DNA from: Collinsella aerofaciens
Lineage (GTDB): Bacteria > Actinomycetota > Coriobacteriia > Coriobacteriales > Coriobacteriaceae
Length of the DNA stretch: 64,000 bases
Direction: 5' to 3'
Assembly (NCBI RefSeq): GCF_002736145.1
Contig: NZ_CP024160.1
Span: 1,860,001 to 1,924,000 of the forward strand
Positions 40,522 to 63,731 of the stretch are shown piece by piece. Numbering within the stretch: position 1 is the first letter of the stretch; the number at the start of each line of letters is the position of its first letter. The notes under the pieces were generated by a model, which saw only the letters and a list, made by a program, of their open reading frames with translations, was not told the DNA's origin and made no database searches. The translations under genes were made by a program, and so were the position numbers.

Positions 40522-40569
40522 TGGGGACGTACTTAAATGAGTGAAACTACTCATTTAAGTACGTCCCCA
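40522..40569. repeat. Palindromic repeat family A, complete copy
   Basis: Two perfect 21-base arms (40522-40542 and 40549-40569; core GACGTACTTAAATGAGT) around a 6-base loop. This is the most complete copy of the family in the window. Confidence 0.85.
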
Positions 40570-40586: not shown

Positions 40587-40650
40587 GAGAGTGGATAATC
40601 TCCCGTTTTTGGCCTGCTTGTGGGCTCAAAGTGGGAGATTATCCACTCTC
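40587..40650. repeat. Palindromic repeat family B, copy 1
   Basis: GAGAGTGGATAATCTCCC (40587-40604) and its perfect inverted copy (40633-40650) enclose a conserved 28-base loop with TTTTTGGCC. A conserved tail (CGTCCAAAAATCCCCGCTCG) follows to about 40681. Confidence 0.85.
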
Positions 40651-43551: not shown

Positions 43552-43615
43552 GAGAGTGGATAATCTCCCGTTTTTGGCCTGCTTGTGGGCTCAAAGTGGG
43601 AGATTATCCACTCTC
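43552..43615. repeat. Palindromic repeat family B, copy 2
   Basis: GAGAGTGGATAATCTCCC and its perfect inverted copy, the same 28-base loop and the same tail as copy 1, with small changes in the tail (GGGTGTCC for GGACGTCC). Confidence 0.85.
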
Positions 43616-45203: not shown

Positions 45204-45335
45204 AGGAACAGCTCCAATCAAAATCAATTCAGCCAGTTACGCGCAAGGCAAGACGGGACCCACGCCCCCATCGCCCGCGACCCGGCGGCCCGCCGGAAGC
45301 GGCCGACCAGCGTTTCGAACAACGTTAACTTAGGG

Positions 45336-45456
45336 GGCTCTGACCTTTAGTTTTGTAAACATTCCGCAGCGCGAGCCCCGCTTATCCGATGCTCCGAAGG
45401 AGCAGGATAAGCGGGGCTCATGCGCGAGGACGTTTACAAAACTAAAGGTCAGAGCC
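45336..45456. repeat. 121-bp giant nested hairpin
   Basis: Outer arms 45336-45360 and 45432-45456 are a perfect 25-bp inverted repeat (begins GGCTCTGACCTTTAG, ends TTTTGTAAAC). Inside are GCGC/GCGC, a perfect 15-bp stem GAGCCCCGCTTATCC (45373-45387 with 45405-45419) and an apical GCTCC-GAA-GGAGC. Nearly the whole element can fold. It sits between two leftward genes with nothing else in the gap. Confidence 0.85.
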
Positions 45457-45469
45457 GCCGATGGGATGG

Positions 45470-46807
45470 TTACCTCGAAACCCTGGCCGACCACTCCCAG
45501 CAGCCCACCGGCTCGCCGTCGATGAGTACGTTGCCCCCGTCGAAGTCTTGATAACACAGGTCGTTGAATTGGTGGATCCACACGCCGTGGTTGAACGTCT
45601 TTTTGGCCGAGCCGTCGGCTTCGCGATACACGCCGGTCAGGTCTTCGACATGGCTAAAGTAGGTGAGATGCACGTTGGCGCCGGCACCGCGCAGGCGCGC
45701 GAACAGCGGCAGCACGGTCTGTTGCGGGTGCACGAGCTCGTCGCCCTTGGAGTGCGTAAACCACAGCGGAGTCTTGGCGAGCGCGGCCACGTCCTCGTCC
45801 GTGGCGTTGTACCACGGGGCGCAGCAGGGAAGGCCCGCGGCGAAGAAATCGGGGTAGTCGGCGCACAGGCGCAGGGTCATAAAGCCGCCGTTGGAAAGAC
45901 CGGCGACCACGATGCGGTCGGTGTCGATGCGGTCGGCATGCTCGGCGACAAACTCGTCGATAAGCGCCTTGAGCACGGAGGAGTAGATGCTCTGGTTGGA
46001 GCGACCGAGTTGCTCGACGCCGTTGTCCATCCAAAACGTGGGCGACTGCGGCACGAGCACCCAGGCAAAGCCGCCAAAGTAGCGCTGGATCTGCGCCTGG
46101 CTAATGGCCGTCACGCGGTTGCCGATATAGGCGCGCGTAGCGCCTTCGCCTTGCGTGGCGCCCTTGCCCTCGCCGGCGCCGTGCAGATACACCACGAGCG
46201 GTGCCTTTTGGGGCACGACCGTCGCCTCGGGCGCAAAGGGGTTGAAGCATGCCGAGTCTTCGGCCTTAAAGCTGGGCTCAAAGAAGCCGTATTCGAGCGC
46301 GATGCCGTCAACGGCGGTCTTTTGCGTGGCGTTGCTCCAGCCTTTGAGCGCGGGGCAGATATCGCCACGGCAGGTGTCGAAGACCAGGCCGCAGGTGGGA
46401 TCGTCGCCGTCGTTGCCGGGAAGAGCTGTGAGCTGCGTGATGCGCAGCTGGTCATCGAGCATGCGCGAGCCCATGACGCCGCCTTCGATGGTCTTGGTCA
46501 GGCGCTGCTCGGCGACCTCGAGCGCCACATGGGTGCCCACGGCGAGCTTACGTCCGTTCTCGTCGCACGGATATGCGGCGAGAATGTCGATGTAACCCAC
46601 GGAGGGCGCGGCATGGTCGGCGCCGCGCTCCTTGCGCATCAGAACCTCGCCCGAGCGCTCGTGACGCTCTACATATATATGGAAGGTGTTCGCGTCGATG
46701 TCGTTGGCGCGCACGGTGCAGGGCAGGTCGAGTACGACCTTGCTGATCCAGGGGCCAAAGTCGCCCAAGGTGGTGACGGTTGCGTAGGTACACAATTTGA
46801 GCTCCAT
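45470..46807 (-). CDS. Esterase with N-terminal Ig-like domain (feruloyl/prolyl-oligopeptidase-like)
   Basis: 445 aa with no signal peptide. About residues 1-130 form an Ig-like beta domain (KVVLDLPCTVRANDIDANTF). An alpha/beta hydrolase domain follows: oxyanion region VVYLHGAGEGKG, nucleophile elbow GLSNGGFMT, late His near the end. This two-domain layout matches EstA-type esterases and feruloyl-esterase-like enzymes. It is the first gene of a leftward pair and faces the EIIBC operon at 47298 across a region with operator-like palindromes. Confidence 0.8.
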   Translation of the reverse strand: MELKLCTYATVTTLGDFGPWISKVVLDLPCTVRANDIDANTFHIYVERHERSGEVLMRKERGADHAAPSVGYIDILAAYPCDENGRKLAVGTHVALEVAEQRLTKTIEGGVMGSRMLDDQLRITQLTALPGNDGDDPTCGLVFDTCRGDICPALKGWSNATQKTAVDGIALEYGFFEPSFKAEDSACFNPFAPEATVVPQKAPLVVYLHGAGEGKGATQGEGATRAYIGNRVTAISQAQIQRYFGGFAWVLVPQSPTFWMDNGVEQLGRSNQSIYSSVLKALIDEFVAEHADRIDTDRIVVAGLSNGGFMTLRLCADYPDFFAAGLPCCAPWYNATDEDVAALAKTPLWFTHSKGDELVHPQQTVLPLFARLRGAGANVHLTYFSHVEDLTGVYREADGSAKKTFNHGVWIHQFNDLCYQDFDGGNVLIDGEPVGCWEWSARVSR

Positions 46808-51643: not shown

Positions 51644-51707
51644 GAGAGTGGATAATCTCCCGTTTTTGGCCTGCATGCGGGCTCAAAGTGGGAGATTATC
51701 CACTCTC
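51644..51707. repeat. Palindromic repeat family B, copy 3
   Basis: GAGAGTGGATAATCTCCC and perfect inverted copy; loop as in copies 1 and 2 except GCATGCGGG for GCTTGTGGG. The tail is truncated. Confidence 0.85.
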
Positions 51708-63667: not shown

Positions 63668-63731
63668 GAGCGTGGATAATCTCCCGGTTTTGGCCTGTGT
63701 GCGGGCTCAAAGTGGGAGATTATCCACGCTC
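63668..63731. repeat. Palindromic repeat family B, copy 4 with compensatory change
   Basis: GAGCGTGGATAATCTCCC and perfect inverted copy. Compared with copies 1-3, A is replaced by C on one arm and T by G on the other, so pairing is kept. Confidence 0.85.

Follow-up and report, generated by a model that had tools for sequence, protein, structure and literature searches.

The hairpin at positions 45336-45456 of the Collinsella aerofaciens window (the whole stretch of 64,000 nucleotides that was analysed) raises the question of why so long a palindrome is kept between two genes. The preliminary description had reported a 121-bp element between two esterase/hydrolase genes and proposed that its integrity reflects a function or a recent arrival. 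The hairpin proved to be real and its coordinates exact. The outer arms (45336-45360 / 45432-45456) pair perfectly over 25 bp and the inner stem (45373-45387 / 45405-45419) over 15 bp, as had been claimed, and at the apex a GAA triloop sits on a stem of 5 bp. When the segment 45316-45476 was folded and compared with shuffled sequences, -63.2 kcal/mol was obtained as DNA (z -13.5) and -103.3 kcal/mol as RNA (z -13.7), and none of the 200 shuffles folded equally well. The arm sequence did not occur a second time within the window, where 0.00 occurrences were expected. Pfam assigned the gene upstream of the hairpin in the sense direction, on the minus strand, to the esterase-like alpha/beta hydrolases and the gene beyond it, also on the minus strand, to the Sde182-type nucleoside-hydrolase-like proteins.

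The self-complementary unit exceeds the claimed 121 bp. Local alignment of the reverse complement of the left flank with the right flank showed that 45260-45318 repeats the esterase 3' end (45475-45533) in inverted, degenerate form, over 59 nt and in symmetric register. A short unpaired foot separates this pairing, P1, from the outer stem P2. The minus-strand RNA of 45240-45545 was folded into a single hairpin of about 290 nt with -215.6 kcal/mol (z -15.3). In the sense direction, the locus has the following features:

45475-45533, minus strand: P1, coding-sequence side; last esterase codons, pairing with 45260-45318 (local alignment, RNA fold)
45470-45472, minus strand: TAA stop of the esterase ORF 45470-46807, 10 nt from the hairpin base
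45432-45459, minus strand: P2, 5' arm on the sense strand; outer stem, perfect over 25 bp
45425-45431, minus strand: invariant core strand 1, GUCCUCG in sense, CGAGGAC on the plus strand (columns invariant in 30 of 30 aligned copies)
45405-45419, minus strand: P3 inner stem, 5' strand in sense
45391-45403, minus strand: apical 5-bp hairpin with a 3-nt loop, GAA on the plus strand, UUC in sense (folding)
45373-45387, minus strand: P3 inner stem, 3' strand in sense
45363-45369, minus strand: invariant core strand 2, CUGCGGA in sense, TCCGCAG on the plus strand (columns invariant in 30 of 30 aligned copies)
45333-45360, minus strand: P2, 3' arm on the sense strand
45260-45318, minus strand: P1, distal 3'-UTR side; degenerate inverted copy of the esterase 3' end
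45258-45457, no strand: segment missing at the otherwise matching site of genome G018, with 4 bases instead

The other long inverted repeats of the window differ in sequence from the element, in line with the earlier statement that it is unrelated to families A-F. A second family with 18-bp arms and a 28-nt spacer (GAGAGTGGATAATCTCCC... or close), unrelated in sequence to the hairpin element, was seen at four places (40587-40650, 43552-43615, 51644-51707 and 63668-63731). One of its copies adjoins a palindrome with 21-bp arms at 40522-40569.

Further copies of the element were searched for by BLAST, which gave several in this genome, and with a covariance model built from 30 copies. The model gave 15 clear copies in this genome (E <= 1.1e-15), counted as 23 model rows minus 4 reverse-strand duplicates and minus 4 weaker related matches of the subtypes C and D. 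The hairpin is thus neither unique nor decayed, and with these copies and the independent assemblies an assembly artefact or a unique decayed sequence was excluded. The four weaker matches (G000:C1 632942-, 373696+, 514928+ and 1618995-; L273, L275, L276 and L274) have related but different cores, for example GTTCCGCA...GCAGGACTG with a CACTTAATGTG apex, and are probably sister subfamilies. Some of them directly follow ORFs that, by the look of the ORFs only, resemble def and a HAD hydrolase.

Model matches were obtained in 39 of the 43 genomes of the genus, the named ones being Collinsella, and in 61 of the 297 genomes of the order (15 of 107 genera), where some are weak and possibly chance. 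In a pattern scan, those named matches that had well-paired arms (at least 21 of 24) were Collinsella, among the matches listed. The unit is about 80-134 bp long across the family; in several genera of the same family and in family f5 most units are smaller (about 80-117 bp) and keep the core between variable arms. Outside Collinsella, a hairpin with TTCCGCAG and CGAGGAC and partly paired arms (18 of 24) was seen near 2837-2901 of a locus (L193) of the MAG Actinomycetes 7-NCT_026; it may be kin of the family or chance. A phage origin was rejected, as no exact arm match was found and viral contigs gave 17 pattern matches, none with well-paired arms.

In Rfam, the element gave no match above cut-off, and a set of weaker matches, all below their gathering scores, was judged to be chance. 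A literature search for palindromes, hairpins or RNAs of Collinsella and Coriobacteria, and wider searches, gave no published description in the texts within reach, supplementary tables being outside it. A large screen, in the part of the article that was accessible (PMC8040213), places 250 palindromic candidates in its supplements, where an unnamed entry for the element may exist. The family apparently is undescribed so far.

Alignment of the copies separated a constant from a variable part. Along the sense strand, a short foot follows the stop codon; then come P2 (about 28 bp), GUCCUCG and the variable-length P3, next a 3-nt loop and, on the way back, P3, CUGCGGA, P2, foot and the P1 strand. 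The asymmetric core GUCCUCG...CUGCGGA, 14 bases over two strands, was invariant in all 30 aligned copies. In the stem of about 28 bp the sequence varies freely and the pairing is kept: 40 of the 46 modelled pairs change on both sides, and doubly changed cells numbered 356, against 104.6 in shuffled and at most 91 in slid alignments. The covariation was 0.688, compared with 0.188 when shuffled and at most 0.169 when slid. The outer stems were Watson-Crick at 2680 of 2733 positions, and double changes were common even among close relatives. The arms appear free to change because only their pairing matters. Template switching creates and repairs stems, according to the accessible text of PMC8794818, and we propose that the arm changes are paired because it rewrites both sides. 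As it would also erase the asymmetric core, selection must keep the core.

The copies have a fixed place. In 103 of 126 distinct copies, an ORF of 60 codons or more, on one fixed strand, has its stop codon 0-45 nt from the stem base, and in a wider search window, among copies with enough flank, an ORF of at least 100 codons ends on that side in 94 of 116 and on the mirror side in 23 of 116; both counts include orthologues and are not independent events. The other 23 of the 126 copies have no adjoining gene end, some because the locus sequence ends early. In this genome, 13 of the 15 copies directly follow an ORF. A copy at G000:C1:214138-214266 (L259) has no adjoining gene end and is followed by promoter-like sequence; the copy that follows the oligopeptide ABC ATPase gene lies 180 bp away, in opposed orientation.

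By Pfam, the host genes encode a homoserine kinase (GHMP), a semialdehyde dehydrogenase, GroEL, Pta, a class II aldolase, PEP carboxylase, a TPP/ferredoxin enzyme (PFOR-like), a class IV aminotransferase, a MIP channel, a glycyl-radical protein, the oligopeptide ABC ATPase, a P-type ATPase and the esterase. The set includes thrB, asd, groEL, pta, fba, ppc and PFOR and belongs mostly to central metabolism or is chaperonin; the names thrB, asd, ilvE, glpF, grcA and PFOR are interpretations of the Pfam matches. Such genes are presumably highly expressed. Close to the groEL copy an FMN riboswitch was seen (L260:1101-1293), and the copy behind the oligopeptide ABC ATPase gene has a tRNA in its vicinity (L258:2084-2170).

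The pairing with the gene end was then scored at 44 loci. The reverse complement of the left flank gave a mean score of 10.1 with its own right flank and of 6.6 (sd 1.3) with those of other loci. The own-flank score was above the 95th percentile of the mismatched pairs at 26 loci and above the 99th at 11, so the longer palindrome is common, not universal. The strand was addressed with isolated wobble mismatches, counted once per context. They numbered 51 on the mRNA-sense strand and 20 on the other (p 3e-4), and 38 and 18 under a stricter rule (p 0.010). By stem, the sense:other counts were 24:5 in P1, 21:11 in P2 and 6:4 in P3, of which only P1 is significant singly; the P3 value is the filtered one, the raw count of 62:8 having been set aside because loop positions may be misaligned. 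The excess suggests that the sense RNA is the selected form, but a C-to-T bias in transcribed DNA could give an excess of the same sign. A pure DNA-hairpin role had at first been favoured, with no G.U excess seen (G.T 8 versus A.C 15), and was weakened by the larger counts.

The strains were compared at the esterase site, which is polymorphic. Of six genomes with a match outside the element, G000, G004, G010 and G019 have the element, and G018 has both neighbour genes, with 4 bases in place of 45258-45457; the sixth, the distant G028, gave no alignment at the element. The one site without the element, that of G018, has no clean target duplication and may have arisen by deletion. The elements of G004, G019 and G010 have different arms, each self-pairing in its own way.

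A longer history was read at the 3' end of thrB, where the comparison covered the 30 of 41 matches that have DNA. The exact core was found in 24 of these 30 genomes and a near match at that place in 2 more. No core was present at the expected place in L372, L373, L376 and L353; in the last (genome G059) the core is deleted and a short hairpin with the old arm sequence is left. The 20 close relatives, which are C. aerofaciens-like genomes with the exact core, carry four discrete hairpin versions. Between versions (149 pairs) the coding sequence is 93.7% identical and the arm 64%, and within versions (41 pairs) the values are 94.6% and 97.8%. Version 4 lies directly after the stop codon, and past it the sequence resumes at the apical hairpin of an older version and continues through the distal half of that version. 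This half is from version 1 in G012 (L045/L364) and from version 2 in G062 (L354) and G010 (L358). The stranded halves indicate that whole cassettes replace one another, by insertion or recombination.

At the 3' end of groEL, the exact core was present in 9 of 30 chosen genomes, in the families f1 and f5, and about 5 more had near matches with at least 15 of 26 arm pairs; the genomes were hand-chosen, mostly with model matches, and give no frequency estimate. The remaining ones have core-less hairpins or ordinary terminators at the same place; the assignments were made partly by eye, and the gene end of L383 was misplaced. Taken together, the invariant core, the covariation, the fixed place after stops and the recurrence at groEL in two families support the function that the preliminary description had considered. 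A recent arrival is not supported for the family, but the esterase site itself is polymorphic.

Several known systems were compared with the element. Integron attC sites have the boxes RYYYAAC and GTTRRRY; by eye, this consensus does not fit. The inverted repeats, which we took to resemble an ISL3-like MITE, have arms that are not conserved between copies, and this candidate was dropped. The Collinsella-1 RNA (RF01700) comes from the same genus and is of similar size (196 positions), but it has another sequence and fold and about one good copy per genome; its identity with the element was rejected, as the Rfam model had no match in this genome. RF01700 passes the cut-off in 20 of the 43 genomes of the genus (L069-L088), not in this one.

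Nearest in kind are ERIC and REP, judged from those parts of their published descriptions that were available. ERIC/IRU, as described in the accessible part of PMC2229807, is a dispersed, intergenic, imperfect palindrome of about 120-130 bp, transcribed beside genes and with an orientation that matters in the Yersinia case, and the element resembles it. ERIC is conserved in sequence (about 127 bp), whereas the Collinsella element has only about 14 conserved core bases and wholly different arms, keeps a fixed orientation after stops and extends its palindrome into the coding sequence. REP/BIME palindromes (GTAG/CGTC) lie mostly downstream of ORFs, often at less than 20 bp, and may supply a TAG stop, in the portion of PMC3733652 that could be consulted. 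The REP unit measures 20-40 bp, in contrast to about 80-134 bp here, where the arms are not conserved. No convincing element was found within about 1.3-1.7 kb of either PF01797 (Y1, RAYT) gene of this genome, the best match having 12.2 bits and E 0.088. The size, the variable arms and the lack of an adjoining Y1 gene argue against REP membership. TAG occurred within the last 26 nt at 24 of 38 loci (10.8 when shuffled) and GTAG at 14 of 38 (3.0 when shuffled), but TAG is also the commonest stop here. The reading as a GTAG tag of the REP/RAYT type, suggested by the TAG in front of the hairpin, was set aside, since TAG is the usual stop and no Y1 gene adjoins. A mechanical count of the non-overlapping long ORFs in the window gave TAG for 25 of 43 stops, TAA for 13 and TGA for 5. 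U-poor stem-loop 3' ends, known from Streptomyces, and I-shaped terminators of GC-rich bacteria share a stable stem, few U and the place at mRNA 3' ends (PMC8269248, accessible part). The conserved internal loop, set stem length and coding-sequence pairing of the Collinsella element are not known from them.

From the family, its core, the covariation, the position, the orientation and the cassette versions, we infer a transcribed Coriobacteria 3'-UTR RNA element that would form or protect mRNA 3' ends, with a probability of about 0.5. The mRNA would fold just past the stop codon into a very long hairpin of P1, P2, the conserved asymmetric loop, P3 and the 3-nt loop, in which the outer helix P1 could take in the last codons of the gene. 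The hairpin would act as a U-poor, terminator-like structure that blocks exonucleases at the mRNA 3' end, with the invariant internal loop as a putative site for a protein or nuclease. Template switching between arms, along with the exchange of entire cassettes, would rewrite its two arms in step. The fixed place and strand after stops (103 of 126 copies), the covariation (40 of 46 pairs), the pairing of the left flank with its own gene end (26 of 44 loci), the wobble excess on the sense strand (51:20) and the recurrence of the core at groEL across f1 and f5 argue for this. The wobble excess could, however, reflect transcription-associated C-to-T mutation, and the 2680 Watson-Crick pairs of 2733 are tighter than selection on an RNA usually needs. 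By the look of the GNA-type triloops and G.A-rich loops, the opposite strand fits better, and 23 of 126 copies have no adjoining gene end. A simple scan found an ordinary terminator-like site further downstream of 4 of the 15 copies; such a site would be superfluous if the element itself ended transcription. The missing U-tract speaks against a plain intrinsic terminator: at least 3 U within 8 nt after the stem were found in only 6 of the 15 copies, one of which has 6.

The element might instead be non-autonomous mobile DNA of the REP, ERIC or MITE kind that inserts behind stop codons. The hairpin DNA would then be the mobile form, any RNA role secondary and the post-stop position a matter of target choice or tolerance. 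We hold this to be possible but doubtful. It is in keeping with the 15 dispersed copies, the esterase site with and without the element, the four discrete thrB versions, the older half stranded beyond version 4 and the Y1-type transposase genes (PF01797) in 37 of 43 genomes, 2 of them in this one. But neither of these two genes is near an element, the G018 site lacks a clean target duplication, and viral contigs had no match with well-paired arms. No full-length copy was seen at two clearly different loci among the pairs listed (the best pair at clearly different ORFs reached 0.856), and mobility is also hard to square with an orientation that is fixed and with a vertical recurrence seen both at thrB, where 24 of 30 genomes have the exact core, and at groEL. 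Rather improbable, in our estimate, is a family of mobile RNA-ending cassettes in an order of gut bacteria, whose members would place themselves behind stops, copy the gene end in inverted form into their own stem and displace one another site by site, while providing much-used mRNAs with their ordinary 3' ends.

By analogy with REP, which near stop codons stalls ribosomes under a distance rule of less than 16 nt (accessible part of PMC12306157), and with ERIC, which exposes an RNase E site (PMC2229807, likewise in part), a ribosome at the stop could melt P1 and so make the loop or a nuclease site more or less accessible. The stop is indeed close to P2 and often inside or beside P1. We consider such a translation-coupled switch unlikely, as the distance from stop to stem is 0-45 nt and often above 15, many loci have a weak P1 (below the 95th percentile at 18 of 44), and the hosts include abundant enzymes, where repression would be odd. 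Template switching during replication might also keep palindromes near gene ends perfect with no function at all. The nearly always paired arm changes, the double changes between close relatives and the known creation and repair of stems (PMC8794818, in the text available) fit this, yet an asymmetric core that is unchanged in all 30 aligned copies and is met again in other families would be lost in this process, which would not fix place and orientation either. This explanation is very improbable.

As a 3'-UTR RNA element, the family would be a large conserved 3'-end structure, seemingly undescribed, of bacteria that are common in the human gut, and the rewriting of its arms in pairs is documented unusually clearly. 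Protein-coding sequence as one strand of a helix would be an unusual case, in which gene end and UTR evolve as a pair. The origin of long RNA stems and the upkeep of their perfect pairing become directly testable with it, as does the question of whether Coriobacteria have a mode of their own for ending or protecting mRNAs.
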